A stretch of DNA of 64,000 bases from Candidatus Saccharimonadota bacterium. GTDB taxonomy: Bacteria; Patescibacteriota; Saccharimonadia; Saccharimonadales; Saccharimonadaceae. The stretch is from assembly GCA_027492465.1 (NCBI GenBank), contig JAPUET010000024.1:1-64000 (forward strand). Direction: 5' to 3'. Below are positions 1 through 15,014 of this stretch, piece by piece. The notes below the pieces were generated by a model. It made no database searches. It saw only the letters and a list, made by a program, of their open reading frames with translations, and was not told where the DNA came from. The position numbers and the translations under genes are program-made. Position 1 is the stretch's first letter. Every line of letters begins with the position of its first letter.

Positions 1-55
1 GAGTGCATCCTTGCCAAGGATGAGGCCAGGAGTTAGAGTCTCCTTACCCGCACCA
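1..55 (+). tRNA. tRNA-Gly(GCC), 3' part, integration site
   Basis: The left edge cuts a tRNA gene. The visible part has the anticodon stem with loop TTGCCAA (anticodon GCC), a variable region, a T arm and an acceptor 3' strand ending in encoded CCA at 53-55. The adjoining serine recombinase on the other strand stops inside the acceptor stem, so this tRNA is the likely attachment site of the element to its right. The 5' part lies outside the window. Confidence 0.88.
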
Positions 56-1540
56 AATATTTGAATTATGAGCCGAAAGGCTCTTTTTCTTTGCCTCAAC
101 GATGGTTCTAAAGGGGTCGTTTAGTATATAAGACAGCTTTTTGTCCTTTAATTCAATGTTTGAAAGTACGTATTCCAATAACTTCTGTCGTAGCCCCTCA
201 TCGCTCTCTCTGAACAGCTGGTCAGCCCGTTGAGCCAAGTCTAACAGGTAAGAGGCGGTTACTTGGAACTGCTTGTTATCATTTGTTAGCAACTTTAGGC
301 GGTCATTCAGTTCCTGCTGTTTCTTTTCTAGCTCAGTTGCAATTTCATCGTGGAATGTCTGTGTAATACGACCCTCAAGTAAGTCATAGTAAACCTTACG
401 CATTTTGTCCTTGAGCTTGTCGTACTCAGCACGGGTTAGCTCAATGTTTTGCGTAAAGTAGGTTTGCTGGTCGTTATGGCGGTTACGCAGCTCGGCAATG
501 ACTTTATCTAACCAATTTTCTGGCACGTCTATAAATCCTATATCTGCCGCTACTTCATCAATTACAAGGCTCACGGCTGTATTAGGATTATCGCACTTGG
601 AGTTAGCACATCGCAAATACACGGTGTTGCGAGCCTTGAATGGCGATACTGCACGTCCACATTTACCGCACTTCACTATCTTTTTGAGTGTAAAGTCTTT
701 GCTATCGTACTTAGTCTTTTCGTGCTTACGCTCATCACGGACACGCTGCACTTGATTGAACAAGGCACGGCTGATGAGCGGCTTGTACTTGTGTGGGTAC
801 TCTCTGCCAGCGTGTACCATAACGCCATAGTAAAATGGGTTGCTCAAGATGCGTTCAAGAAACTGCTTACTCGGTGCTTTACTGCCAGCGATATTGCTAC
901 GAAAACCCATCTCACGAAGTTCTTTTGCAATGACAGCGTATGACATACCTCTTGCTCGCAGTTCATACGCTTTTACAATGTAGTGTGCCTTTGCATCATC
1001 AACTTCAATATCTTTGAGTGGTTTCTGTGGCGTACCGCCTTTAAGCACGTTTAGATAGCCGATAGGAGCACGATGTACCCAGATACCCTCACTCAGCATC
1101 TGCTCAAAACGGCGTTTGACGTTATCTCGGATGCTATCTGAGTAGTATTTTGCCAATGCCATTCCAATGCCAAGCCGAAACCAATCAGCAGCTGATGAGT
1201 TTTTATCAATGTACAAACTATCGTTTGGGAAGTGCAGTTCAATTTTGCCTTGCTTGACCAACTGCTGTAATGCCTTTACTTCTTCTTGGCTACTATCACG
1301 GGTAAGGCGGTCTATCTTATCAAAGACAACATAGCACAAGCCAGTTTGCTTGTGTATATGTTCAACGAGCTTGCCGAACTTTTGTCGCACGTCCTTGTGA
1401 GCACTTTCATCAAACTCGTGATATTCAGACGGTAATTGCTTTTGTTCGGCGTACCGTTCAAGTCGCAACTTTTGAGCTGGCAACGCTTTACGTTGCTCAA
1501 CATCTGATACTCGTGCGATTAGGATTAGCTTAGTTTCCAT
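44..1540 (-). CDS. Large serine recombinase (integrase) of the tRNA-Gly element
   Basis: Site-specific recombinase expected to integrate and excise the element. The N-terminal resolvase domain has the catalytic-serine motif ARVSD near residue 10 and a conserved DRLTRD motif near residue 75-80. A recombinase domain follows at about 160-260, then a zinc ribbon (CGKCG ... CANSKC, about 295-320) and a long coiled coil. At 498 aa it has the usual length of the large serine family and no frame damage. The last codons (WCG, stop) are the reverse complement of the tRNA-Gly 3' end, so integration supplies or preserves the stop codon. The Rep gene lies 27 bp upstream in the same direction, so both may be expressed from the element operon. 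Start chosen at the ATG at 1540. Confidence 0.93.
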   Translation of the reverse strand: METKLILIARVSDVEQRKALPAQKLRLERYAEQKQLPSEYHEFDESAHKDVRQKFGKLVEHIHKQTGLCYVVFDKIDRLTRDSSQEEVKALQQLVKQGKIELHFPNDSLYIDKNSSAADWFRLGIGMALAKYYSDSIRDNVKRRFEQMLSEGIWVHRAPIGYLNVLKGGTPQKPLKDIEVDDAKAHYIVKAYELRARGMSYAVIAKELREMGFRSNIAGSKAPSKQFLERILSNPFYYGVMVHAGREYPHKYKPLISRALFNQVQRVRDERKHEKTKYDSKDFTLKKIVKCGKCGRAVSPFKARNTVYLRCANSKCDNPNTAVSLVIDEVAADIGFIDVPENWLDKVIAELRNRHNDQQTYFTQNIELTRAEYDKLKDKMRKVYYDLLEGRITQTFHDEIATELEKKQQELNDRLKLLTNDNKQFQVTASYLLDLAQRADQLFRESDEGLRQKLLEYVLSNIELKDKKLSYILNDPFRTIVEAKKKSLSAHNSNIWCG

Positions 1541-1567
1541 AATTGTTTACTCCTTTATAACTTAACA

Positions 1568-2698
1568 TTACTTACCAGTATTTTCAATGTTTGATAGAAA
1601 GTCAGACATACGTGTTGGCGTGAACATCTGCAACGCCTCGTCTATATGTACAAACGATGCAAAGCGGTATGCGTCTGGTGGCTTTAGCAGTGGTTTGATG
1701 CGATACCACGCTTGTTTGCCGTAACGAGCCTCAAGCACATTCCGTAGACCAATAGCACCAACCTGACTGGTAATAACCAGTCCAGCAACTGCCGCAAGTG
1801 CTGCTTGTGGTGTAGCATCTTGGTTAGCCTCAATGTAGTTTTGTAAAAGCTCGTACGGCTCTTTTACGTCAAGTGCCAACATATCAACCGAACTTGTGAG
1901 CTTGTTCCAATGCTTGAGCAGGGTGTTCTGGCACAACTTTTTCTTGTACAGGTTTTCAAACGTCCACTGTTCAAGTTCGGGATAGGCTCGCTTGATAGAG
2001 GCTCTACCGACAAAACGTACCTCGTATCTGAATACTTCCATTGGGCGGTACTCAGATAGGCTCTCAAGCAAGTTGAGCTGCACGGTGCTGTCATTCTCAA
2101 AAGCCCGTTTACCGCTTTTCTTTGCTTTTAGCAGGTCAGCCATTTTGTCGTAAAAGGCTATATCAAGTGAGTTGGCGTGAATGTGTACGACGTGTCCATC
2201 ACGAAAGTCCGTTTTCTGCAAGTCGTACGTTTTACTCACGTCCAACTTGCCCATAGTATTGAGGATTGTTTGGCACGAGGTATAGTCAAGAAACACAATG
2301 TTCTTGGATGGATGCCAAGCCGCAATATCGGCGTGGGCAAGCTGTGGCTTGAAGAACCGATGACCCGTTAGCTCATATAACGCACCTTGAAGTGCTGTTA
2401 GTAGTGCATCAAAGTCTTTTTCTTCTAGCTCATCAAAGTTATTGCCGAACAACATCTTCGGTGCCGAAAACTCAACAGCCAGCTGATACTCAACGGTCTT
2501 TCGTACTCGCTTGTACATTGTTAGGCGTGGCATATATTTGCCCATCTTTGCGTACGTACGAGAGGGGTTGAGCATAGCCTTACCAAAGCCCCGACTGTTT
2601 ACTAGCAGCTCAAGGCTTGGTGAGAACCTGCCATTATCAAAGGCGAGCGGATTATGTACGGGTATGAGTAGCTTTACTGTGTCTATCATAATGTTCAT
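1568..2698 (-). CDS. Phage/plasmid replication initiation protein (gpII/Phage_CRI-like)
   Basis: The N-terminus MIDTVKLLIP and the segment with HIHANSLDIAFYDK (about residues 190-205) resemble the rolling-circle initiators of filamentous phages and related plasmids (Phage_CRI family). About 375 aa, normal for the family. It would nick the element origin and start rolling-circle replication after excision. Its start overlaps the 3' end of the SpoVG-like gene by about 45 nt, which suggests translational coupling. Start uncertain: ATGs at 2698 and 2689 are both plausible, and a longer form from 2719 has no better ribosome site. Family assignment is from remembered motifs and not from a search. 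Confidence 0.68.
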   Translation of the reverse strand: MNIMIDTVKLLIPVHNPLAFDNGRFSPSLELLVNSRGFGKAMLNPSRTYAKMGKYMPRLTMYKRVRKTVEYQLAVEFSAPKMLFGNNFDELEEKDFDALLTALQGALYELTGHRFFKPQLAHADIAAWHPSKNIVFLDYTSCQTILNTMGKLDVSKTYDLQKTDFRDGHVVHIHANSLDIAFYDKMADLLKAKKSGKRAFENDSTVQLNLLESLSEYRPMEVFRYEVRFVGRASIKRAYPELEQWTFENLYKKKLCQNTLLKHWNKLTSSVDMLALDVKEPYELLQNYIEANQDATPQAALAAVAGLVITSQVGAIGLRNVLEARYGKQAWYRIKPLLKPPDAYRFASFVHIDEALQMFTPTRMSDFLSNIENTGK

Positions 2699-2963
2699 CA
2701 CTTCTTTCAAATAGCTCAATGCACTTTGCTACAACCGCTTGCTCAATCATCTTGCCAGCCTCTTTGGTTACAGGATGGAAGTAGTTGAGCTGCCGAGAAC
2801 CTATCCTTTTGGTGGGGTAGGTTATGCGATAGCCAGTGCCGTCTAGTAGTTGGTGTACACCGAGCGAGCCGACATACAACTGACCGTCAATCACACAACT
2901 TGCAAATGCTACAAGCCCGTCAGTCGGTTTGACTGGCGTGATATTCACTTCGCTAACTTTCAT
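2652..2963 (-). CDS. SpoVG family protein
   Basis: About 103 aa. The body (MKVSEVNITPV ... LVAFASCVIDGQLYVGSLGVHQ ... YPTKRIG ... YFHPVTKEAGKMIEQAV) follows the SpoVG pattern: a beta strand, the conserved ASCVID-type strand, a (P)xKR loop and a C-terminal helix after HPxxxE/R. SpoVG proteins bind RNA and DNA, and this one is an element-borne copy beside the replication gene, so it may regulate element expression or replication (inference). Start at 2963 is set by GGGAG seven bases upstream; the longer reading frame to 3023 runs into the preceding gene. Confidence 0.78.
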   Translation of the reverse strand: MKVSEVNITPVKPTDGLVAFASCVIDGQLYVGSLGVHQLLDGTGYRITYPTKRIGSRQLNYFHPVTKEAGKMIEQAVVAKCIELFERSDEHYDRHSKATHTRT

Positions 2964-3273
2964 ACCGCTCCCGAAATTTGGTGCATTCTTCCTGACATTC
3001 ATCACTTTTGCACGGACTTTCAATCAAAAAATCAATCTGCGTGCTCAAGTCTCTTAACCAGCAATGAGGCAAGCTGCCAATGCTAGAGCGGAGTGATTTT
3101 GACCATTCGTCCGAGCTTACCTTTCCAGGTAAGCTATCAAATGCATCGGCAATAATCTGTTCAAGTTGTTCGGCTTCCGTGTTCCAAATAAAGAACTTTA
3201 CTGCGTACAACTGACAATGTTCGCACCAGTTACTAAACTGGTCAGCTATCTTTATCATTTGCTCGTCGTTCAT
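2953..3273 (-). CDS. Hypothetical element protein, 106 aa, Cys-containing
   Basis: I do not recognise a family. The protein is acidic and mostly helical, with an N-terminal CEHC pair (WCEHCQLY, about residue 16-19) and a C-terminal CKSDECQEEC cluster, which together could bind a metal. Start at 3273 follows AGGGAGC with good spacing. It overlaps the SpoVG-like start by 11 nt and the upstream small gene by 32 nt, so it belongs to a tightly coupled operon running toward the replication protein and integrase. Confidence 0.6.
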   Translation of the reverse strand: MNDEQMIKIADQFSNWCEHCQLYAVKFFIWNTEAEQLEQIIADAFDSLPGKVSSDEWSKSLRSSIGSLPHCWLRDLSTQIDFLIESPCKSDECQEECTKFRERYES

Positions 3274-3475
3274 TTTTAGTGCTCCCTTGTTCATTACGTT
3301 GCTTTTGTGCAAAGTCCATCTGAATAAGCACGTCAAAGAAACCCGTAAGGTTACGGATAGCCTCATCGCTTAACTCAGCAGTCACGCCATTATTTGTGGC
3401 ATTGTCTCGTGGCTCTGCTGGTTTAGTAGCCTTTCGTTCTTGGTGGTTATCCTGCTGTTCTTGCATAGTAACCAT
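3242..3475 (-). CDS. Hypothetical small element protein, 77 aa
   Basis: First gene of the minus-strand operon. It has a charged, Gln/Asn-rich N-terminus, a short helical centre (LSDEAIRNLTGFFDVLIQMDF) and a basic tail. No family recognised. No clear ribosome-binding site precedes either possible ATG (3475, 3466). It overlaps the next gene by 32 nt, which supports a coupled operon. Confidence 0.5.
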   Translation of the reverse strand: MVTMQEQQDNHQERKATKPAEPRDNATNNGVTAELSDEAIRNLTGFFDVLIQMDFAQKQRNEQGSTKNERRANDKDS

Positions 3476-3525
3476 TAAGAATAACGGCTCATTTAAGCCA
3501 TTTAAATCTGTGGAAAAACTATATT

Positions 3526-4743
3526 TTACAGAGTGATGTGTTCTGGATTGACGTAAACCTCAACGCCGTCCAAAACAAAGAAGTTAGGAATTGTACCGCC
3601 CGAAGCTATCAACACTTTTTGGTTGAGCTGGTGTATATAGCTGCGTATTTTAATTATCCAATTGTGTTCATCTTCAATCCGCTCGCCAAATGCTTGAAAT
3701 ATCAAATCCTCAATATCCCAGCGTTTTGTGATGTTCTCTGGTGTATTAAGCAGAATACGGGCAAACTGCGTTTGTTTTGAACTGACTGACACTGATACTT
3801 TGAATGAGCCAATCTGTATAGATGAGCTTGTTCGTTGGAAGCGGACTGACGATGGCGATACAAGCTGTTTACTCTGTGGTGCGTTATTCACAAGCAGCTG
3901 TTGTCTTAAATCACGTACTTCTTGTTTCAAGTCGTTGAAGGCTAGTAGCAAACTAGCGTTATCGGAAAAAGTGACGTTACCGACTTTGCTAGACTGCGTA
4001 GCAACAGCTGTTGCCGTTAGGTTTTCGTCACTGCCGTCAATGTCGTCAATAGCAACGTCTACAGTTTCAAAGCGGGTAAACTCAATGCTTGCTGTAAGTG
4101 AGCCAATATCAAACGTCAAGTTACGTACAATACGCTCGTGCATAGTCTGAAAATCAGCAAACATTGTTCGTGCTATAAACGGGGCTTGAAAAGCACTTTG
4201 GATGCCTTTTATTGACATAAGGATGCTTTCCGTTGGAAACGCTAACAATGACTTTTGTATGGCAGCAAGGGCAGTGAACTGGTTCTGTGTAAATACACTG
4301 CTTTTGTAGATTGCATCTATGGCAGGCATCAAGCTGGCTTGAATATCAAATGCCCTAGCCAATGCTGGCTGTGTGGTAAAAGATAACTTTTGCATATCAG
4401 CTGCTATTTTCAACATTGGCTTTGTGTCTATTGCCAATGCCTTAACGAGAGTTTGTTGAACTGATGGGGAGTTGTAAACGCTCAAAGCCTTAGCAAAGCC
4501 ACTAAAGTCGTACTGGCTGGTTAGCCTCTCAGACACTTTTCGTATTTGCTCTTGAGCATCGGTCAAACGTTTTTGCTCGTTCGGAGTGAGTGTGTGGTGG
4601 TCTTTTACACTCAGGTCTTTGTATTCACGCAGCGTGAGCGAGCTGCCAGCATTTCGTTTCTTGTTCTTAAAGTCGGCAGCAGTAGATACCGTAACGATTA
4701 CGGGTTTAGAGGCATCATCTTTAGTCTTTGCGTCATTTTTCAT
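3526..4743 (-). CDS. Hypothetical protein with C-terminal winged-helix-like domain
   Basis: 406 aa from the ATG at 4743, which follows GAGAGTGAAG; the longer frame to 4794 would overlap the divergent HTH gene. The N-terminal 70 residues are polar, residues about 70-230 are an amphipathic helical region with repeated Phe/Leu spacing, a short coiled coil (LKQEVRDLRQQLL) lies near 290, and the last 75 residues resemble a winged helix (KRWDIEDLIFQAFGE ... WIIKIRSYIHQLNQKV ... IPNFFVLDGVEVYV). It may be the element's own regulator. It shares a 44-bp intergenic region with the divergent HTH gene at 4788. Confidence 0.6.
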   Translation of the reverse strand: MKNDAKTKDDASKPVIVTVSTAADFKNKKRNAGSSLTLREYKDLSVKDHHTLTPNEQKRLTDAQEQIRKVSERLTSQYDFSGFAKALSVYNSPSVQQTLVKALAIDTKPMLKIAADMQKLSFTTQPALARAFDIQASLMPAIDAIYKSSVFTQNQFTALAAIQKSLLAFPTESILMSIKGIQSAFQAPFIARTMFADFQTMHERIVRNLTFDIGSLTASIEFTRFETVDVAIDDIDGSDENLTATAVATQSSKVGNVTFSDNASLLLAFNDLKQEVRDLRQQLLVNNAPQSKQLVSPSSVRFQRTSSSIQIGSFKVSVSVSSKQTQFARILLNTPENITKRWDIEDLIFQAFGERIEDEHNWIIKIRSYIHQLNQKVLIASGGTIPNFFVLDGVEVYVNPEHITL

Positions 4744-4775
4744 CACTTCACTCTCATTCACGTTAGTAACTCGTG

Positions 4776-4787
4776 TATAGTTATAGT
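4776..4787 (+). promoter_or_regulatory. -10 box directly before leaderless HTH gene
   Basis: Two tandem TATAGT hexamers. The first ends exactly 6 nt before the ATG at 4788, and there is no Shine-Dalgarno sequence. Confidence 0.5.
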
Positions 4788-4994
4788 ATGACACAATCAG
4801 GGAAAAAAGAGCCGAAGCTGCTCACACTCAAGCAAACGTGTGAGCTACTGAATTGCCACCCAAACACGTTGCGTGCGTGGGATGCAAAAGGCTACTTGGT
4901 TGCCATTCGTTTTGGTACACGTGGCGATAGACGCTACCACCGAGAAGATGTGATGAAGTTACTGGAAAGAACTGGCACAAAGAACAAAAAATAA
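4788..4994 (+). CDS. MerR/excisionase-type HTH DNA-binding protein
   Basis: 68 aa. A single helix-turn-helix of the MerR/HTH_17 type fills the protein: LLTLKQTCELLNCHPNTLRAWDAKGYL, then the wing GTRGDRRYHREDVMKLL. It lacks the metal-binding coiled coil of full MerR regulators, so it could be an excisionase or directionality factor or a small regulator of the metal genes that follow by 21 nt. Start at 4788 is preferred over 4773 because the -10 box lies between the two, implying a leaderless mRNA. Confidence 0.8.
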   Translation: MTQSGKKEPKLLTLKQTCELLNCHPNTLRAWDAKGYLVAIRFGTRGDRRYHREDVMKLLERTGTKNKK

Positions 4995-5015
4995 TAACAG
5001 GGGTGATTGTTAAGT

Positions 5016-5624
5016 ATGAGAGATGATGTTGTGGGCAATTCGGAAACAAAGACACTGGAAAAGCGTGGCTTACATTTCGCCTATTTCATTATAGGCTGGG
5101 ATTTCTTTGAGTGCTTGATTGCCATAACTGCTGGCGTAATTGCTGGCTCAATTGCCCTAACGGGTTTTGGCACGGACAGTGCCATAGAAGTATTTGCGGC
5201 TAGTGTTGTGGTTTGGCATTTGCGTGGAGCAAAAGAGGAGCGTATTAAACCTGCTCTCAAACTGATTGCTCTGAGCTTTTTTGCTTTAGCCGCTTATATT
5301 GCTATCCAAGCAAGCATAGACTTAATAACAAAAGACCGACCTGACCCCTCAATTGTCGGTATTTGGCTCAATGCAGTGGCTCTAGCCGTAATGATACCTG
5401 TCGCTATAATCCAACGCCGAACGGGTAAAAAACTGGGAAATAAAGTCATTGTAGCTCAATCATCTGAAACGTGGCTATCAAACTACTTGTCAATCAGTTT
5501 GCTTGTGGGGCTTGGTCTAAATGCCGTATTTAGCTGGTGGTGGGCAGACCCTGTTGTAGCCTTGTTGCTTGCGGGAGTGGCTATATACGAGGGTCGTGAG
5601 GCGTGGGAAGAAGCTAACGAGTAG
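5016..5624 (+). CDS. Cation-transporter-like membrane protein
   Basis: 202 aa with about five or six membrane segments. The motif GSIALTGFGTDSAIEVFAA (about 40-60) parallels the GSxALxADAxHNLxD signature of cation diffusion facilitators, keeping an acidic residue (TDS) in place of the usual ADA. A second half resembles the CDF segment with WADPVVALLLAG. It matches the short 'cation transporter' family found next to heavy-metal genes. A typical cytoplasmic C-terminal domain is missing. Start at the ATG at 5016 after AGGGG; 4 nt from the next gene, so co-transcribed with it. Metal specificity unknown. Confidence 0.72.
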   Translation: MRDDVVGNSETKTLEKRGLHFAYFIIGWDFFECLIAITAGVIAGSIALTGFGTDSAIEVFAASVVVWHLRGAKEERIKPALKLIALSFFALAAYIAIQASIDLITKDRPDPSIVGIWLNAVALAVMIPVAIIQRRTGKKLGNKVIVAQSSETWLSNYLSISLLVGLGLNAVFSWWWADPVVALLLAGVAIYEGREAWEEANE

Positions 5625-5627
5625 GGT

Positions 5628-6104
5628 ATGCACGGTATCATTACCTTTGTTGCTAATTATGCGTTAGTTGTTCCGATTATCGGCGTGGTGCTAGTATGGC
5701 TATCCTTAGGCAGTAAACCCCAAAAAACGCAGTTTCTTATAAAGGCACTTGTCGGGGCGGTAGTTATTATCCTACTTGCTAGAATTGGGAGCTGGCTATA
5801 TTACAACCCTCGCCCTTTTGTCGTCAGTAATTTTAACCCTTATTTTCCGCACCCAAATAACAATGGCTTTCCCTCTGACCATACGCTTTTTACATCTTAC
5901 CTAGCCTTTTTAGCTTTGAGCTACAACCGTAAGGTAGGAGTTTTCCTTTTGATAATTGCGGGTGCAATAGGCTTAGCTCGGGTTATAGCGGGTGTACATC
6001 ATTTGGTTGATATAATCGGAGCTTTTGCTATATCGGGTATTATAGTGGGTGTTATGCAGTATTATGAGAACACTAAACGCTCTACAAAAACGAGGATAGA
6101 ATAA
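5628..6104 (+). CDS. PAP2-family phosphatase (undecaprenyl-diphosphatase-like)
   Basis: 158 aa, four or five membrane segments. All three lipid-phosphatase motifs are present: YYNPRPFV (near 58-65), GFPSDH (near 80-86) and ARVIAGVHHLVD (near 116-127). Such proteins dephosphorylate membrane pyrophospholipids such as undecaprenyl diphosphate. Its place between two metal transporters is unexpected; cell-wall lipid recycling under metal stress, or a different lipid phosphate substrate, are possibilities (inference). It lies 3 nt after the upstream gene and 3 nt before the CDF gene. Confidence 0.87.
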   Translation: MHGIITFVANYALVVPIIGVVLVWLSLGSKPQKTQFLIKALVGAVVIILLARIGSWLYYNPRPFVVSNFNPYFPHPNNNGFPSDHTLFTSYLAFLALSYNRKVGVFLLIIAGAIGLARVIAGVHHLVDIIGAFAISGIIVGVMQYYENTKRSTKTRIE

Positions 6105-6107
6105 ATT

Positions 6108-6998
6108 ATGAGCCATAATCACGACACGAAAGACAATGACGGTAGTATCAAGTTCGGTCTGGTTCTAAATACTGGCTTTACGATAGTTGAGTTTATCTTT
6201 GGTATACTCACAGGCAGCCTTGCCCTTATTGCTGATGCAGCCCATAACCTAACTGATACCTTTACGCTTTCAGTATCCTTTATTGCAAACCGTCTAGCTC
6301 GGCGAGAGGCGAACGATAGTAAAACCTTTGGTTATGGTCGTGCTACTATCCTAGCCGCCTTACTCAATGCGAGCGTGATGCTCGCTGTTGCAGCCTTTAT
6401 TGTTATTGAAGCAATACAGCGATTAGGCAATCCACACCCCGTAGAGGGCGGTGTCGTGGCTGCTGTTGCCTTTGTTGGGATACTGGTCAACGGCTCAATT
6501 GCGTATGTTCTATCCAAGAACCGCAAAGATTTGAATATGCGAAGTGCTTTTGTGGATATGGCTTTTGACGCTTTGTCATCACTTGGTGCGGTTATTGCTG
6601 GTCTAATTATCTGGCTCACTGGCATAACGTGGGTTGATAGTGCCGTTGGTCTAGTGATAGCCGCACTACTCGTATACAACACGCTCAAGATACTTCGTGA
6701 AGCTGTACAGATACTACTTGAGGGAACGCCAAAAGACTTAGATATTACTGCTATAACTCAAGCAATAACAGATACAGAAAAAGTATTATCCGTTGATGAT
6801 ATGCACGTATGGGCTATCCGCTCAGGCTATAACGCCTTGAGCTGTCATATTGCTATTGATGAAACTGATTTAAAGGACAGCCGAAACATTGTAGAAGTTA
6901 TCAAAGCCAAGTTACGAAAAGACTACGATATTCAACACGCCACAATTGAAGTTGAGCTGGAAGACTGTACTACGCACGATGAACACGAACGGCACTAG
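6108..6998 (+). CDS. Cation diffusion facilitator, CzcD/ZitB type
   Basis: 296 aa, six membrane segments and a C-terminal cytoplasmic domain. Signature GSLALIADAAHNLTDTF near residue 35-50 carries the HxxxD metal site; the second site lies in FVDMAFDALSS near 145. The N-terminal HNHD and C-terminal HDEHERH stretches fit zinc binding. Members export Zn, Cd or Co by proton antiport. It is the third gene of a tightly packed metal operon, and the following gene starts inside its 3' end. Confidence 0.92.
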   Translation: MSHNHDTKDNDGSIKFGLVLNTGFTIVEFIFGILTGSLALIADAAHNLTDTFTLSVSFIANRLARREANDSKTFGYGRATILAALLNASVMLAVAAFIVIEAIQRLGNPHPVEGGVVAAVAFVGILVNGSIAYVLSKNRKDLNMRSAFVDMAFDALSSLGAVIAGLIIWLTGITWVDSAVGLVIAALLVYNTLKILREAVQILLEGTPKDLDITAITQAITDTEKVLSVDDMHVWAIRSGYNALSCHIAIDETDLKDSRNIVEVIKAKLRKDYDIQHATIEVELEDCTTHDEHERH

Positions 6999-7635
6999 CA
7001 CTACAAAGCCTGATGATTATACGTGGCGACCAAAAGGCTCGCCTATTAAGGCTCAGGGGATTGCGATTGACCCTTATCTTGCGTTCAAGCATTTTGTAAT
7101 GCCTGGTCTTGGCGACCCGAACTGGATTGAGGATAGCAGTAAAGTAACCGACACGGGGATGAGTAAGCGAGAATGGATTGGACTTATTGTCCACGCAGTT
7201 GCACTGATGGACTTAACAGGCGATGACTTACGTGTTGCGAAGATGCTAGATAATGATGACGGCGGTTTAGTTCGTGGCGAAAGCGAAGCTGTGTATGTAG
7301 AGCAGACACTTGCAACACACAAGAACAAGAAGCACGATACTCTACTGGAGACTGTGGCTGAACGGGTTGAGGATAAGTCATCTAAAGGCGAAAGTTACGC
7401 TGCGAATATGCACTTGATAGTGTTCTGTAATATGGACGGCGACCTAAAAGAGGCTGAGCTGGCTAAAATCGTATCCGAGGGCAGGTTTAATATCGTCAAC
7501 ATTTTTGGTTTTAACAGCAAGGATAGGCACTACCTATCACTATTGTTTGATAGAGACAAAGCTGACGCACCAATACACAGATGTGCCATCAGTGAGAAAA
7601 AGCTAATTAAGCGAGCTAACAATACTCAAAAATAA
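6979..7635 (+). CDS. Hypothetical protein in the metal operon
   Basis: 218 aa, soluble, no signal peptide. It begins with a start overlapping the CDF gene by 20 nt, which implies translational coupling. I do not recognise a family. Visible features are an Asp-rich centre (DNDDGG, near 92) and an alternating beta/alpha C-terminal part (MHLIVFCNMDGDLKEAELAKIV). Partner of the next gene, 5 nt downstream. Confidence 0.62.
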   Translation: MNTNGTSTTKPDDYTWRPKGSPIKAQGIAIDPYLAFKHFVMPGLGDPNWIEDSSKVTDTGMSKREWIGLIVHAVALMDLTGDDLRVAKMLDNDDGGLVRGESEAVYVEQTLATHKNKKHDTLLETVAERVEDKSSKGESYAANMHLIVFCNMDGDLKEAELAKIVSEGRFNIVNIFGFNSKDRHYLSLLFDRDKADAPIHRCAISEKKLIKRANNTQK

Positions 7636-7640
7636 GCGTA

Positions 7641-8594
7641 ATGAAAAAGTTAATACAAAAACTGACCAATCGGAACAACTACGTTGATACCTTGCTGATA
7701 GCGGGTCTGCAAAGCTGCTCTGATAAACCGCCTGTCAAACTGATTGAACACTGCAATTCGCTCAACAATAGCTACAAGAAACAAAACTACACGACTGTCG
7801 CCATTGTCATACGAGGGGTGCTTGATTACATACCGACCATTTTTGGTTTTGCGAATACCACTCAGGTTTACTCAGAATTGCACGGTAAACGAACATTCAA
7901 GGATGCTTTGAAGCAACTTGACCAAGCCAGTCGTAACCTTGCTGACGATGGCTTGCATAGTCCAGCTCGTAAGGATGAAACACTCAAAGTCAGCAAGCTA
8001 ACTGTTGATAATTTGCAGGGCAACCTCGCTATCGTGCTGAGTGAAACAGCCGCACAGTTACGAACAAAGGATTTGCGTGACGACGGAAACGCCAAGCTAG
8101 ACGAGCAAAGAGCCGTAAAACCCAAGCGACAAAAGTCGCAGTTGGAAACCTTTGAGGATTATATTGCAACCAAGCAATGGACTGAGCAGGAGTTAGATGG
8201 CGATACGGTTTGGATTTGCGAAACGGATAACCTCTACCAAATACACAGCCGAGGCGATTATGACGAATTTAGTGAGCCGTGGACACAGGTTTACCCTGAT
8301 AAAAACGGCTCAGGTAAACATAGCGTTGACCTTGTATATGCTGGCACAATCATCAAGCGGTTTACGTTCATCTATTGCGATGGTGGTCGCATAAGTGTAG
8401 TTATGCCTGAGCTTTATATAGCACCAGAACACAGGTATCCACAACGCAAGTTCAAAGAGGATGATAAAGACCATCGTGAGTACATCTGGAAAAAGGACAG
8501 CATCAAGTTCAAGTTGATGAAGCTCATCGGTAGCTTTTACATCTATGACACGCCAGAGGGCGTGGCTAAACAGTCAGATATAGAAATAAAGTAG
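7641..8594 (+). CDS. Hypothetical protein, 317 aa, end of the metal operon
   Basis: No family recognised by eye. The first about 110 residues are helical (LLIAGLQSCS ... HCNSLNNSYKKQNYTTVAIVIRGVLDYIPTIFGF) and resemble the helical repeat parts of abortive-infection or retron-associated proteins only superficially. The second half, after a basic linker near 160, is beta-rich (YQIHSRGDYDEFSEPWTQVYPDKNG). Followed by 144 bp holding the copper operators, so it closes the upstream operon. Confidence 0.6.
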   Translation: MKKLIQKLTNRNNYVDTLLIAGLQSCSDKPPVKLIEHCNSLNNSYKKQNYTTVAIVIRGVLDYIPTIFGFANTTQVYSELHGKRTFKDALKQLDQASRNLADDGLHSPARKDETLKVSKLTVDNLQGNLAIVLSETAAQLRTKDLRDDGNAKLDEQRAVKPKRQKSQLETFEDYIATKQWTEQELDGDTVWICETDNLYQIHSRGDYDEFSEPWTQVYPDKNGSGKHSVDLVYAGTIIKRFTFIYCDGGRISVVMPELYIAPEHRYPQRKFKEDDKDHREYIWKKDSIKFKLMKLIGSFYIYDTPEGVAKQSDIEIK

Positions 8595-8672
8595 GCAGCG
8601 AAAAAACGCTTGGTCATTCTGCCCCCATAAATTCGGTATTTATACTGCGGAGTGCTGTTTTGGCAGAATAAA

Positions 8673-8731
8673 GGGGTAGTACCCCCCCTATCAACACGCT
8701 GTTTGCATAGTACCCCTAGGGGGTATATAGT
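8673..8731 (+). promoter_or_regulatory. Two CsoR-type operators and -10 box
   Basis: Operator 1 at 8673-8685 is GGGGTA-G-TACCCC, followed by more C. Operator 2 at 8711-8725 is TACCCC-TA-GGGGGTA. Both match the TACCC-N-GGGTA inverted repeat recognised by CsoR-family repressors. Operator 2 touches a -10 box TATAGT (8726-8731) that ends 7 nt before the csoR-like ATG, so repressor binding would block RNA polymerase. This predicts autoregulation and metal-induced expression of the downstream copper genes. Confidence 0.78.
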
Positions 8732-8738
8732 AAAGTGT

Positions 8739-9023
8739 ATGATAAGCGTAATAAAGAAGCGAGCATTGCACCGAGCCAAGATACTTGAGGGTCAAATGCG
8801 TGGTATCCAGAAGATGATTGAAAATGAAGACTACTGTATGGACATACTCACGCAGAACCTAGCTATTCAAAAATCCATCGGCTCGCTCAACAAGCTGATA
8901 CTTGAGAACCACGTGCGAACACACATCAAAGACAATCTAAGTTCCAGTTCGGAAGATGAACAGGAAAAAGCAATTACCGAACTTCTTTCACTGTATGAAC
9001 TTACAAATGTGAGGGGTAAATAA
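8739..9023 (+). CDS. csoR: CsoR/RcnR-family metal-sensing repressor
   Basis: 94 aa, all-helical DUF156 fold: RAKILEGQMRGIQKMIENEDYCMDILTQ then LILENHVRTHIKD. The three core ligand positions read Cys (DYC), His (ENH) and His (RTH), not the Cys-His-Cys of copper CsoR; Cys-His-His is the core set of nickel/cobalt RcnR. Neighbouring copper genes and CsoR-like operators still point to copper. The frame is open to 8652, but the -10 box and operator lie inside that extension, so the ATG at 8739 is the start. First gene of an operon with three copper genes. Confidence 0.85.
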   Translation: MISVIKKRALHRAKILEGQMRGIQKMIENEDYCMDILTQNLAIQKSIGSLNKLILENHVRTHIKDNLSSSSEDEQEKAITELLSLYELTNVRGK

Positions 9024-9025
9024 TT

Positions 9026-9394
9026 GTGAAATTAGCAGCAGCTATAAAAAACGCATTGGTTTTATTGGCTGTTGTACTAATCAATTCTATTAGCTTTGCG
9101 GGGCATACCTCAGCTATGTCTAGTATGTCGCACGAAATGGGCAGTATGAAGCACGGTTCAAGCGACGCAACTTCCTGTGCTACCCTTTGCCGCACGGCAG
9201 TTATCAACAAGGAAGATAATGTCATCAACGATGACGAAAGCGAAGATGATACCGAACCAGCTATAGCTTTCTACGGACAGAGCCAAACATTATCAACAGA
9301 TGAAAAATCGCTTTCTCAACACCTTTATGCCGCAGAGATAAAACCGCCGCCAAAGATACCGATTTATATTTTGTATGGTGTCTTCCGAGTATAG
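9026..9394 (+). CDS. Small secreted protein, Met/His/Cys-containing
   Basis: 122 aa from a GTG start with GAGGGG nine bases upstream. A signal peptide (LALLAVV-type core, cleavage probably after SFA near residue 25) is followed by a short Met/His-rich stretch (MSSMSHEMGSMKHG) and a CATLC pair, then an acidic linker. These residues could bind copper outside the membrane, as in other small copper chaperones. No family recognised. It lies 2 nt after the csoR-like gene and before a DUF305 gene, so a role in copper handling is likely but inferred. Confidence 0.65.
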   Translation: MKLAAAIKNALVLLAVVLINSISFAGHTSAMSSMSHEMGSMKHGSSDATSCATLCRTAVINKEDNVINDDESEDDTEPAIAFYGQSQTLSTDEKSLSQHLYAAEIKPPPKIPIYILYGVFRV

Positions 9395-9441
9395 GATGTG
9401 ATTGTTTACTCAAGCAGCATCAACTTAACTTTGGAGAAAAT

Positions 9442-10137
9442 ATGAAAAAGAACAGCATAATCATCGTCGCAATTGTCGCAGTAGTTGCTATTGCAGGTGT
9501 TAGCATTTACGCCATCAGCCGCAATAACGATACGATGGACGGCAATATGATGGGCAACTCAAACTCACAATCGGCAGTCCAAGCTGATACTAACTCAGCG
9601 GACTATAAGCAGTACGCAGCACTAAAAGGTGAAGACTATGACAAGATGTTTCTTGCCAATATGATAGCCCATCATCAGGGTGCGGTTGATATGGCAAACC
9701 TTGCTCTAACCAATGCCAACCATCAAGAAGTCAAGGACTTAGCTAAAGCCATTGTGTCCGCTCAAACGACTGAGATTACCGATATGACTGCTTGGCAAAA
9801 GACGTGGGGCTATCCTGCAAGCAGTGGCGAAATGATGGAAGACCACAGCTCAATGGGTATGATGAACACGAACGCTGGAATGATGAACGAATTGAACGGC
9901 AAGACTGGCGAAGGGTTTGATAAAGCATTTCTTGAACAGATGATTATGCACCATCAGTCGGCTATAAATATGGCGGCAACGGGTAAAACGAATGCTCAAC
10001 ACCAAGAAGTAAAAGACTTAACAGTCGTTATCGTTACGGCTCAGACCAAAGAGATAAAGCAAATGAAGCAGTGGCAAAAAGACTGGGGCTATTCTACTTC
10101 CGATACTACCAACTCTATGTCGGGAATGAGCCACTAA
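9442..10137 (+). CDS. DUF305 (CopM-like) copper-binding protein
   Basis: 231 aa. One N-terminal membrane anchor (residues about 5-25) and two tandem DUF305 units: DKMFLANMIAHHQGAVDMA (about 70-90) and DKAFLEQMIMHHQSAINMA (about 155-175), each with an HH pair, plus Met/His-rich linkers (MMEDHSSMGMM). DUF305 proteins such as CopM bind copper outside the membrane. GGAG lies upstream of the ATG. The CopB gene starts 1 nt after the stop, and both lie under the CsoR-type operator. Confidence 0.87.
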   Translation: MKKNSIIIVAIVAVVAIAGVSIYAISRNNDTMDGNMMGNSNSQSAVQADTNSADYKQYAALKGEDYDKMFLANMIAHHQGAVDMANLALTNANHQEVKDLAKAIVSAQTTEITDMTAWQKTWGYPASSGEMMEDHSSMGMMNTNAGMMNELNGKTGEGFDKAFLEQMIMHHQSAINMAATGKTNAQHQEVKDLTVVIVTAQTKEIKQMKQWQKDWGYSTSDTTNSMSGMSH

Positions 10138-10138
10138 A

Positions 10139-12166
10139 ATGGAACACTCGCACGACGAACACTCTGAGCATCAAGACCACGACAAACACGCAGGACATTC
10201 AGTGGCAATGTTCAAAGACAAGTTCTGGCTGTCCTTGCTGCTAACGCTACCTGTACTTGTGTATTCCGAGATGATACAACACTGGCTGAACTTTGTACCG
10301 CCAGCTTTTTCTGGCTCGCAGTATGTGCCATTCGTGTTTAGTACCATCATCTTTTTCTATGGGGGTTTGGTGTTCATAAAGAGTGCGTGGGGCGAGTTAA
10401 AAGCCAAATTGCCAGGTATGATGACGCTCATCAGCCTGGCAATTATCACGGCTTATGTGTATAGCGTAGCTACTCAATTCTTTATTCAGGGCGATGGTTT
10501 CTTTTGGGAGCTGGCAACCTTAGTAACAATTATGCTGCTTGGTCATTGGCTTGAAATGGCATCAGTTGCCAAAGCCGAAAGTGCTCTTGATGCTATATCC
10601 CAACTACTACCCGACAAAGCAGAAAAGCTCATCAATGGTAGACCGAAACAAGTATTGGTCAGTGAGCTAAAGGTTGGCGACTTTGTGCTAGTACGTCCAG
10701 GCTCAAGTATTCCTGTGGATGGCATAGTTACCGATGGTAGTTCATCTGTAAATGAAGCTGCTATTACGGGCGAAAGCAAACCGACCAGTAAAGCCGTGAA
10801 CGATGAAGTTGTGGCTGGTACGATAAACCAAGACGGTGCATTGACAGTAAAAGTAACAAAAGTCGGCGAAGATACAGCACTTGCTGGCATTATGCGTTTA
10901 GTTGCCGAGGCTCAAAGTTCAAAATCTAATGTCCAGGTGCTTGCCGATAAAGCAGCCTTTGCTCTTACAATCATTGCCATAGCGACAGCTATCATTACCT
11001 TTGTTTACTGGCTCATTGCAAAGGATGCAGCTTTTGCATTAGAAAGGTCTGTTACTGTTTTGATTATCGCTTGTCCGCACGCTCTCGGCTTAGCAATACC
11101 TTTAGTAGTGTCTATATCAACTGCCATTTCTGCACGAAGTGGTTTGCTTGTTCGTAAGCGTTTGGCACTTGAAGCTGCACGTAAGCTAGATTGGGTGCTT
11201 TTTGATAAAACAGGCACACTTACCAAGGGCGAACACGGCGTAACAGATATTTGGGCAACGAAAGGCTATACAGGAGAAGACATTTTACATCTAACTGCAA
11301 GCCTTGAGCAGAATAGCGAGCATATCGTTGGCAGAGGCATTGTAAGTGAAGCACAGAAAAAACACGTCCACTTGGATAAGGTTGAAGACTTTGCTGCTCT
11401 GCCTGGGCTAGGAGTTAAGGGTAAACTGCACGGTCACGACAACTTTATTGCAGCGAGCTATCGTTATATCAAAGAAAATAAGCTCAACGTGCCTAAAGAT
11501 GTAGAGCGATATTCTAAGCAAGCCGCAAAAGATGGCAAAACCGAGGTTTATCTAATAAAGGACGACAAAGAGGTTATTGGGGCTATTGCTCTTGCTGATG
11601 TTATTCGTGAACAATCAAAACAAACCATTGCCGCACTGAGAGCCGAGGGCGTAAAAACAGCGATGGTTACTGGCGACAGCCAAGATGTAGCGGCGTACGT
11701 AGCTAAACAGCTTGGCTTAGACCAGTATTTTGCAGAAGTGCGACCTGAGGATAAAGCCAATAAAGTTAGCGAATTACAGAAAAGTGGTAACAAAGTGGCT
11801 TTTGTTGGCGATGGGGTAAATGATGCTCCTGCTCTAACTCAAGCGGATATTGGTATGGCGATTGGTGCTGGTACAGACGTAGCCATCAAGTCTGCTGATA
11901 TTATCTTGGTAAAAAGCGACCCAAGAGATGTAATAAGAGTTATTCACTTGTCAAAAGCAACGTACCGCAAGATGGTACAAAACCTAGCTTGGGCTACTGG
12001 GTACAATGTGGTCGCTATTCCACTTGCCGCTGGGGTGCTATACAGTTCGGGCATATTGCTATCGCCAGCAGTTGGGGCTGTCCTAATGTCATTCTCTACT
12101 GTGATTGTAGCTATAAATGCCCAGCTACTGAGGCGTGTTCACTACCATCCAGGTCATAGCCACTAA
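10139..12166 (+). CDS. copB: Copper-exporting P-type ATPase, CPH type
   Basis: 675 aa. Starts with a His-rich tail ([18 protein letters not shown]) instead of a CXXC domain. Actuator motif TGES near residue 213, transmembrane metal motif CPH near 312 (P1B-3 class), phosphorylation motif DKTGT near 356, and hinge [10 protein letters not shown] near 558. The CPH class is linked to CopB ATPases that export copper, including Cu(II) or silver in some cases. Length and motifs are complete. Last gene of the csoR-DUF305-copB operon; a hairpin terminator follows. Confidence 0.94.
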
Positions 12167-12303
12167 AGCATCTGTTTGAAAAATCCCACTAAGCCTCAAG
12201 TAAACTGCCTGAAAGCTGGAATTGTTCAACGAGATGTTTTAGCTTATAATCCTCTTGTGCATCAATAGCAGCTGTTTGAAATACGTCAACTATGCTGCAC
12301 CAT

Positions 12304-12465: not shown

Positions 12466-13852
12466 TCAGCTACCTATATTATTTAGAAAACTAAAAGCAA
12501 ACTCTAGGAACTCGGCAAGGTCGCTATCGTGCTCGTTGCTAAGTGTGTTTATTTTCTCTTGGTTCTCGGCAAGCTCGGCTTTATGGCTCTCTATGGCGTT
12601 GCGTATCTCGTCGGCAATAAAAGCATTTGACGGGTCTGTAAGTGCTATAACTTGATTGGCTACTTTTTGCCGTATACTCTCACTAATAGCCTCTAGCCTT
12701 GCTATCTCGTGTCTAGCCTCTCGGTGCTGGGCATCAAAGGTGGCTACTAATTTTGTTTTGAGTTTTTTAAGCTCTAGCTCTGGCAATATGATACCGTCTA
12801 GTAACTTACTGAAACTGTCGTGCGTCTCGTCACGATTTATGTAACGGCTACAAGTTCTACATCTGTATTTTTCGTAGTAGGTAATTTTCTTACGAGGCTT
12901 GCCGTGATTATTCGTACCATTGCTAATGGGTGCACTAGAGAAACGAGGGTTACGACGCTCGGCAATATCACATTTTAGGCAGGTGATTTTATTGGCTAAC
13001 GGGTACTTTGTGTCTTTGTCGGGTCTGTAGCCTTGCTGTTTCTTAGCGTTTTTATCAAAGGCTCGTAGTATCTTTTCGTGCTCGGCTTTGGTGATTAGTG
13101 GCTCGTGTAAACCGTTTTCATTTTGTAGACTAAGCTTGCCGTTTAGCTTAACAGCTCCGTAGTAGTAAACATCGCAAGCGTGATTGCGGAACTTGTCCAT
13201 TTTGTAATTTGGGTAACGCTTGCCAAACTCGGTAGTCTTGAGCCATTTTAAGGCGTCTGTAGGTGTTTTGCTATGGGTAGCTATCGTCTTTAGGGCTTGC
13301 TGGAACGGGTCTAGCTATAGGCTCGTTGGGGACGTGTATACCACGCTCTAAACCCTTTTTATAGCACGTCTTAGGGCGTGACAGGTAACGCCCTCTTGTA
13401 TAGATTTCATACCGCCAGAAACGGCTTTTTTGATACGCTCCTCGTTACTACCCTCGGCAGTAAAGTATTTTAAGAAACGCATAAACCTAGCCATATGATT
13501 ATCGCTATTTAACTCAGGGTCTGAGGCGTACCAAACTTTAACATTGTGCTTGCTAAACTCTACCTCGTAGTAAAAAGCCTCGTCCATAGACCGCATAAAA
13601 CGGTCTGGCTCGTCAATTAACAAGTATTTTACATGTTTGTTTTTAGCACAAAATGATAGCATTTCTTTGAGGTCTGGACGTTTTAGATTTTTACCACGCC
13701 TCGTAGACACATCACCAGACCACTTGCGGACTATCTGCACGCCAAGCTCTTTAGCGCAACGCTCTACAGCCTCGTCTTGGCGATTAAGGCTGTTGTTTTG
13801 TAATTGCTCGGCTGTAGATACTCGGCATAGGGCTATGGCTAAATCGTTTCAT
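12466..13852 (-). pseudogene. Broken serine recombinase (three or more frameshifts)
   Basis: Reading the minus strand in pieces restores one recombinase. A start ATGAAACG at 13852 runs out of frame after about 22 codons, while another frame gives ALCRVSTAEQLQNNSLNRQD, the catalytic-serine region. This continues to KYLLIDEPDRFMRS and SGGMKSIQEG, then stops at 13348. The following segments continue in two other frames (KKGLERGIHVPNEPIA, then ATHSKTPTDALKWLKTTEFG) into the zinc ribbon (CLKCD ... CRTCSRY) and coiled-coil part that ends at 12466. At least three frame changes are needed, so it is inactive unless sequencing errors are involved. It belongs to a different lineage from the intact recombinase at the left end. 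Confidence 0.86.
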
Positions 13853-14148
13853 AGTACCACCTTAGGTGCAGCTCGCTTGAGCGTAGCCAAAACATCGTCA
13901 AGCCATTGCGTGGTAGCGTCTTTGACGGCTTGCTCGTACTCGTCGGCTTTGGCTTGTATCTTGGGCGATATGCTAGGCGTCTTACTTCTCTCATATGGCA
14001 AAAGAGCAAGGCGTGCAAGTTCGTTGTCCTCGATAAATACGCCTCTGTTTTTCTCAAAAGTATGTATAAAATCGTCGGCTAGTTTTCTGCCTTTAGCGTG
14101 TAATCTCTCTAGCTCGGCTATGGCTTTATTTGGGGTATAGCTTGTCAT
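13849..14148 (-). CDS. Hypothetical 99-aa protein coupled to the broken recombinase
   Basis: Helical, basic/acidic mix, no membrane segment. Its stop TGA overlaps the recombinase start as ATGA (13849-13852), the layout of translational coupling, so it was probably an accessory factor of the recombinase. It has no recognised domain. The upstream leader contains eight copies of the 5-bp repeat CTTAT, and the ribosome site is weak. Confidence 0.55.
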   Translation of the reverse strand: MTSYTPNKAIAELERLHAKGRKLADDFIHTFEKNRGVFIEDNELARLALLPYERSKTPSISPKIQAKADEYEQAVKDATTQWLDDVLATLKRAAPKVVL

Positions 14149-14160
14149 ATCGTCCGCAAT

Positions 14161-14200
14161 CTTATCTTATCTTATCTTATCTTATCTTATCTTATCTTAT
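14161..14200. repeat. (CTTAT)8 tandem repeat
   Basis: Eight perfect copies of CTTAT, read as ATAAG on the minus strand. They sit 12 bp upstream of the 99-aa ORF start and between it and the divergent promoter of the candidate structured RNA. Pentanucleotide runs of this type change length by slippage. Confidence 0.95.
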
Positions 14201-14254: not shown

Positions 14255-14260
14255 TATAAT
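14255..14260 (+). promoter_or_regulatory. Promoter -10 box of the candidate structured RNA
   Basis: A perfect TATAAT lies 6 nt before the first base of the predicted RNA; the -35 region is weak. Confidence 0.55.
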
Positions 14261-14265
14261 AAAAG

Positions 14266-14406
14266 GGTCTTAAGTTGTCAAAACACAATAAAGCCACTCG
14301 GTTTACCGTATTGGTTTTTAGCCTGAAAAGGGGCATCGCCCGAACAGTAGGCTAAAACTTATTGTGGTAAGACGACTTAAGACACCGTTGGCGGTGTCCC
14401 TTTTTA
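14266..14406 (+). ncRNA. Candidate structured RNA with closing stem and terminator
   Basis: No ORF, but a clear RNA-like layout. Closing stem P1 pairs 14267-14279 with 14371-14383 (13 bp, one G-U). P2 pairs 14284-14291 with 14359-14366 (8 bp). An inner stem pairs 14316-14324 with 14349-14357 (9 bp) and carries a GGGC/GCCC tip at 14331-14341. A small CGG/CCG hairpin lies near 14299-14308. A terminator hairpin GACACCG/CGGTGTC (14381-14398) with five T ends it. The three bases GAC at 14381-14383 are needed by both P1 and the terminator, so the two compete slightly. It could be a stand-alone sRNA or a leader controlling the small gene at 14457. I do not recognise a known family. Confidence 0.62.
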
Positions 14407-14456
14407 TTTAAGACACTCTAACGGCTATAGCAAATTAACCGTAAGGAGTGCAAAAA

Positions 14457-14684
14457 GTGAAAGACCGCAAAACTTATAAAATATTAACCGCTTGTAGTTT
14501 GGTACTACCAATTAACCGCTGGTATCTAGGCAACGCTAAAGGTGCAATCGGGCGTAGTATTACCGCAAATTATTTTCTTATGGGCCGGCTTGGTGATTTG
14601 TTTTATATGGACAAGACTTTTGACGAGGCTATGGCAAAACGAGGCTTTACAAATACCAATATACGCAACGAGCAAGGCAAGTAA
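14457..14684 (+). CDS. Small TM2-domain-like membrane protein
   Basis: 75 aa. GTG start with AAGGAG eight bases upstream; a GTG at 14448 lies inside that ribosome site. The pattern CSLVLPINRWYLGNAKGAIGR then LMGRLGDLFYMD follows the TM2 fold (two short membrane helices around a WYLG turn and a distal Asp). Function of such proteins is not established. It follows the structured RNA by about 50 nt, and a terminator follows its stop. Confidence 0.58.
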   Translation: MKDRKTYKILTACSLVLPINRWYLGNAKGAIGRSITANYFLMGRLGDLFYMDKTFDEAMAKRGFTNTNIRNEQGK

Positions 14685-14739: not shown

Positions 14740-15014
14740 ATAGCTAAGGTGTAATTATTGTTGGGTAAACACATAACAACAAACTTTTGTTGTAGGTATA
14801 ATAAATTAGCTACCCCCGTTATGCTAACAATCTCGGCTGTTGTAGTTGGGCATAGTTATAAATTGAAAAAAATGACGTCCACGATAATTTAGATAGGTAG
14901 TGCGTTTACGTATTTTTGAGAAATCCATTTGCCGTACATAGGGGGGTATCGTGACCACTAAGCCTTAAAAGCTTAAGTTTGCTTTGGTTTCAATATGATA
15001 GGATAATTGGCTTC

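Follow-up and report, generated by a model that had tools for sequence, protein, structure and literature searches.

What is encoded by the stretch of DNA that lies, free of open reading frames, between a recombinase operon and a small membrane-protein gene in a Saccharibacteria genome? How Patescibacteria regulate their genes is, to our knowledge, almost entirely unexplored. A 2024 review called the mechanisms governing cell-state differentiation in these bacteria "completely unknown" (PMC11665869). A preliminary description of the locus, which placed it correctly between these two neighbours, had proposed a novel structured RNA on a mobile element, with a switch-like layout and a possible regulatory or element-maintenance role.

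The leader RNA and its family

The RNA is a 139-nt structured leader at positions 14267-14405 on the forward strand of the window, i.e., the whole 64,000-nt stretch that was analysed; all window coordinates below are on this strand unless stated otherwise. The segment 14260-14410 folds at -59.8 kcal/mol compared to -34.0 +/- 3.4 for shuffles (z -7.6). Every part previously named is present: (i) a perfect -10 box, TATAAT, at 14255-14260, with the predicted transcription start at the first base of P1; (ii) the 13-bp closing stem P1 (14267-14279/14371-14383); (iii) the 8-bp second stem P2 (14284-14291/14359-14366); (iv) the inner hairpin P4, of 9-10 bp, formed by segments a (14316-14325) and c (14348-14357); and (v) a terminator (14381-14398) followed by CC and U5. 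The final GAC of P1 (14381-14383) doubles as the start of the terminator 5' arm, segment e (GACACCG, 14381-14387), as had been noted, and the structure model adds a small hairpin, P3 (14299-14308), at a three-way junction. Overlooked until now was the loop strand at 14326-14340 (AAAAGGGGCATCGCC), which is complementary over 15-16 nt to 14390-14404/5 (GGCGGTGTCCCTTTT) and gives the terminator 3' arm a second partner.

Judged from its sequence and those of its relatives, this stretch belongs to a strongly conserved, previously undescribed RNA family found in Saccharibacteria and in some other Patescibacteria. First homologues were obtained with blastn in 150 relatives; a covariance model built from three of them matched 44 of the 393 genomes sampled from the order, and a second model, built from 47 sequences, matched 114 (29%). 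In a sample drawn from the phylum, further hits came from six genomes beyond the class and from one that belongs to the class but not to the order. The RNA reaches up to eight copies per genome, standing before different genes, so that a single-copy housekeeping RNA can be set aside; the window's own genome holds three (the window copy on C24, C15:10050-10177, and C30:3542-3682). At one locus (L090, minus strand, 258-374 and 445-572), tandem copies precede a single gene, reminiscent of tandem attenuators. Against Rfam 15, the window RNA gave nothing above the gathering score, with chance-level matches only at permissive thresholds, and sixteen further loci yielded no RNA family besides a tRNA; membership in a known Rfam family was thus rejected, homologues included. 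Plasmid and phage records contained no match, viral contigs had no exact match to three core patterns, and a search covering part of the literature found nothing resembling the family.

The covariance-model search proposed earlier for the closing and second stems recovered homologues by the dozen, with both stems kept and massive compensatory change, rather than stems lost or bases changed without compensation; the proposal of a novel structured RNA thus stands. Across the 37 modelled pairs, 94.2% of cells were standard-paired in alignment A6 (44 distinct sequences) and 93.2% in A7 (76), compared to 63% and 58% for shuffles and about 31-43% for shifted partners, with a bias towards the structure to which these alignments were fitted. 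Both sides had changed in 34 (A6) and 36 (A7) of the pairs. In P1, 96% of cells were paired and 12 of 13 pairs showed compensatory change, as did all eight pairs of P2; P4 is likewise backed by covariation.

The promoter and the leader position are shared across the family as well. Of 123 copies, 118 have a TATAAT-like box 12-13 nt ahead of the RNA, a count that rises to 121 when up to one mismatch is allowed, against a background of about 12%. Behind the U-tract, a same-strand reading frame follows in 119 of 123 copies at a median gap of 41 nt, as called by a scan of the RNA's strand only with a few starts doubtful; three of the four remaining copies end at a contig edge. In most copies, this gap is too short for a separate promoter. 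Judged from sequence, an upstream promoter and an intrinsic terminator between leader and coding sequence are therefore in the arrangement of an attenuator.

The genes behind the RNA vary, and a constant partner gene was rejected. Their products are membrane or secreted proteins and DNA methylases, with a strongly hydrophobic segment in 71% compared to about 37% of other ORFs, a figure that may be low because most TM2-like proteins fall below the hydrophobicity cut-off. Among 93 downstream proteins scanned, roughly ten were DNA methylases or restriction-related, and other types included Fib_succ_major, DUF4352, DUF805, and one OLD-like ATPase. A type III toxin-antitoxin or retron-like system was also dismissed, as the scanned genes included no reverse transcriptase and belonged to several families. 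In the window, the gene (14457-14684) encodes a 75-aa small membrane protein that is TM2-like by eye and has no Pfam match, with relatives behind the RNA at about a dozen loci. Present in 29% of the order's sampled genomes before surface, secreted, and DNA-methylase genes, the leader RNA would be a candidate for control of a broad regulon.

A second hairpin (14414-14451) encloses the Shine-Dalgarno sequence of the window's downstream gene. It has a similar shape in several TM2-subgroup members, where it may provide a second, translational control, and also occurs in some other copies; as a family-wide feature it was rejected, the Shine-Dalgarno sequence being paired in only 23 of 76.

Mutually exclusive pairings around the terminator

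Segment b, the loop strand AAAAGGGGCAUCGCC (14326-14340), is complementary to segment d, the terminator 3' arm with the U-tract (14390-14405). RNAalifold returned b:d unprompted, and not the stems, from a MAFFT-only alignment, because that alignment had misaligned P1; the stem alignment was obtained with covariance models instead. Over 118 distinct sequences, b:d averaged -17.0 kcal/mol, compared to -11.8 with a foreign d and -7.3 with shuffled loops, and the terminator hairpin averaged -8.8. The b:d helix was paired in 91% of cells, with compensatory change in 7 of 11 pairs. Covariation with b (38 GC, 29 CG, and 3 UA) extends to the base before the U-tract (C, G, or A), a position left unpaired in the terminator hairpin.

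Own and swapped partners were compared over 80 non-redundant clusters with 2000 permutations, in a test that uses no pair columns, though its segments were cut using the alignment. Own partners paired better than swapped ones, at 0/2000 in each case, for P1 (-15.3 vs -5.1), a:c (-13.6 vs -5.8), a:b (-13.8 vs -9.4), b:d (-22.6 vs -14.3), and d:e (-10.9 vs -9.0). The controls b:c (558/2000) and a:e (304/2000) were negative, and c:d gave a small signal (1/2000). Segment a thus chooses b or c, and d chooses b or e. All four pairings coevolve yet are mutually exclusive, which is the signature of a transcription-attenuation switch; the terminator arm d in particular has two conserved, coevolving, and mutually exclusive partners, as expected of an attenuator. 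The switch-like layout proposed earlier is thereby supported, although the shared GAC contributes little to the switch, whose main component is the pairing of loop and terminator through b:d.

A putative attenuation switch and its rivals

As the 5' leader to an accessory gene, the RNA is probably a cis-acting transcription-attenuation switch. Transcription would start at the first base of P1, and P1 and P2 would form a rigid scaffold, within which a, in most homologues, pairs first with b and is later taken over by c to give P4. In the window's subtype, b would fold on itself rather than with a; there, a:b is weak (-8.2 in the window's own copy) and b is covered by its own small hairpin. As long as b is hidden, d would pair with e, and RNA polymerase would stop at the U-tract behind the resulting terminator hairpin. 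Once a:c has formed, b would be free to capture d and the U-tract (predicted at about -20 to -27 kcal/mol, with the local hairpin at -6 to -13), and the gene would be reached by read-through. We infer from these pairings that the choice of fold controls read-through, as well as which state is ON and which OFF; the trigger could be a protein or a physical cue, or could lie in folding kinetics as dictated by how fast polymerase moves.

Processive antitermination RNAs such as put of phage HK022 and EAR of Bacillus are also cis-acting and let polymerase pass terminators. They act on polymerase at distant terminators, whereas the present RNA pairs with its own. Closer in layout are the terminator/antiterminator attenuators, such as the Bacillus subtilis trp leader (PMC3913778), which share the promoter, the exclusive pairings around a terminator, the U-tract, and the gene behind it. 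Here, however, it is the 3' arm and U-tract that b would capture, reaching out of a loop that P1, P2, and P4 close; no binding-protein site is known, and one architecture precedes many unrelated genes. In the pil1 locus of Streptococcus gallolyticus (PMC3894217), a premature leader terminator likewise controls a surface structure, but through a leader peptide with changes in repeat number; no conserved ORF stood out in the present RNA on unsystematic inspection.

More tentatively, we suggest an RNA switch that has no conserved aptamer and in which several strands exchange partners during transcription. Across Saccharibacteria, it would serve repeatedly as a plug-in leader for unrelated surface, secreted, and DNA-methylase genes, expression being set by folding kinetics or a global cue. 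Genes of these classes are often phase-variable in other bacteria. If the switch indeed has no aptamer, it would illustrate how unrelated genes can come to be served by one and the same bare folding device. The RNA could also supply a regulatable leader for Saccharibacteria genetics.

Several features weigh against an attenuator of this kind. Most known antiterminators capture the terminator 5' arm; here b pairs with the 3' arm d and must outcompete the nearby e kinetically because d is made last. With P1, P2, and P4 formed, the predicted b:d would be a pseudoknot, and the window's own copy has the weak a:b noted above. Moreover, b:d, which has an A-tract and directly adjoins the U-tract, could itself be the terminator. 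Such reversed logic, with the long b:d helix as the working terminator and a:b plus the weak e:d hairpin as the read-through state, is a serious rival for the ON/OFF assignment even if we consider it unlikely. In its favour, b:d reaches right up to the U-tract, combines A-tract, GC-rich stem, and U-tract, and has about double the stability of e:d, a hairpin of only 4-8 bp that stops 1-2 bases short of the U-tract. Terminators would, however, need fast local hairpins, and b lies about 50-60 nt upstream, presumably inside a closed loop once P1, P2, and P4 have formed.

Promoter, compact fold, and terminator also make up a complete sRNA gene, in which b:d could be a pseudoknot sealing the mature 3' end. 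That the RNA is a stand-alone trans-acting sRNA, with the downstream gene a bystander or transcribed from elsewhere, is nonetheless improbable given the several copies per genome, the close same-strand gene with mostly no room for a second promoter, and the fact that d can pair with either b or e, a switch signature. We give very little credence to a DNA-level element of a mobile island, i.e., a recombination or replication site folding as a single strand; a serine recombinase does adjoin the RNA here and in one relative, and the TM2 subgroup is scattered across genera, but the fixed -10 box, the strand-specific U-tract, the constant orientation to the gene, the copies far from recombinases, and the alternative RNA pairings all speak against it. 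A classical metabolite riboswitch with an aptamer so far unrecognised would fit the three-way junction and the terminator-type expression platform, and the ZTP (pfl) and fluoride riboswitches are reported to work in a similar way, an alternative fold and an intrinsic terminator exchanging strands during transcription (PMC10085676, PMC11077080). Unlike them, the present RNA lacks both an Rfam match and a conserved unpaired ligand pocket in its junction and internal loops. A riboswitch is quite improbable because no such pocket was seen: conserved unpaired bases occur only in b, in an AAnnA just after b, and in d, with no conservation in the junction or the internal loops, and the downstream genes share no common pathway.

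Genomic setting and mobile elements

Placement on a mobile element, as first proposed, applies to the TM2-gene subgroup at most, where a serine recombinase, broken in the window, lies near the RNA in the window and in one relative. Since the majority of the family is found elsewhere, a role in element maintenance is not supported, and across the family the RNA is not tied to mobile elements. The TM2 subgroup may travel with such recombinase elements. In the 16-18 kb contexts of the relatives, homologues of the window's recombinases lay near a full-length RNA only at one locus (L017), in a search whose queries were this window's proteins alone and which other recombinases would escape; a constant association with recombinases or element ends was thus not observed. 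One further homologue lies near a truncated copy at L014 (8305-8606, genome G028), where all that precedes a TM2 gene is the 3' end of the RNA, with the terminator and the 3' strand of P1; the switch is naturally truncated there.

The neighbouring serine recombinase gene (12466-14148, minus strand) is interrupted, with a frame change near its start at about 13851 and another, with stops, at about 13200-13350, pointing to a pseudogene or an assembly error. Directly upstream of its ATG at 14148, eight tandem CTTAT units (14161-14200) form a possible slipped-strand (phase-variable) site for the recombinase operon. A block of about 40 bp (14878-14917, cacgataatttagataggtagtgcgtttacg) recurs in several relatives and is perhaps an attachment site or element end; it is also found in two genomes (G003 and G004) where no TM2-type RNA was found. 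A near-identical 14-mer, CCACTAAGCCT[C/T]AA, brackets the recombinase, RNA, and TM2 cassette at 12186-12199 and 14955-14968, a pair that is possibly an attachment-site duplication, or chance. A separate island occupies 1-12166 of the window, with a serine recombinase gene (44-1540) next to the end of a tRNA (1-52); behind it come cation-efflux and P-type ATPase genes, as named by eye from their translations.
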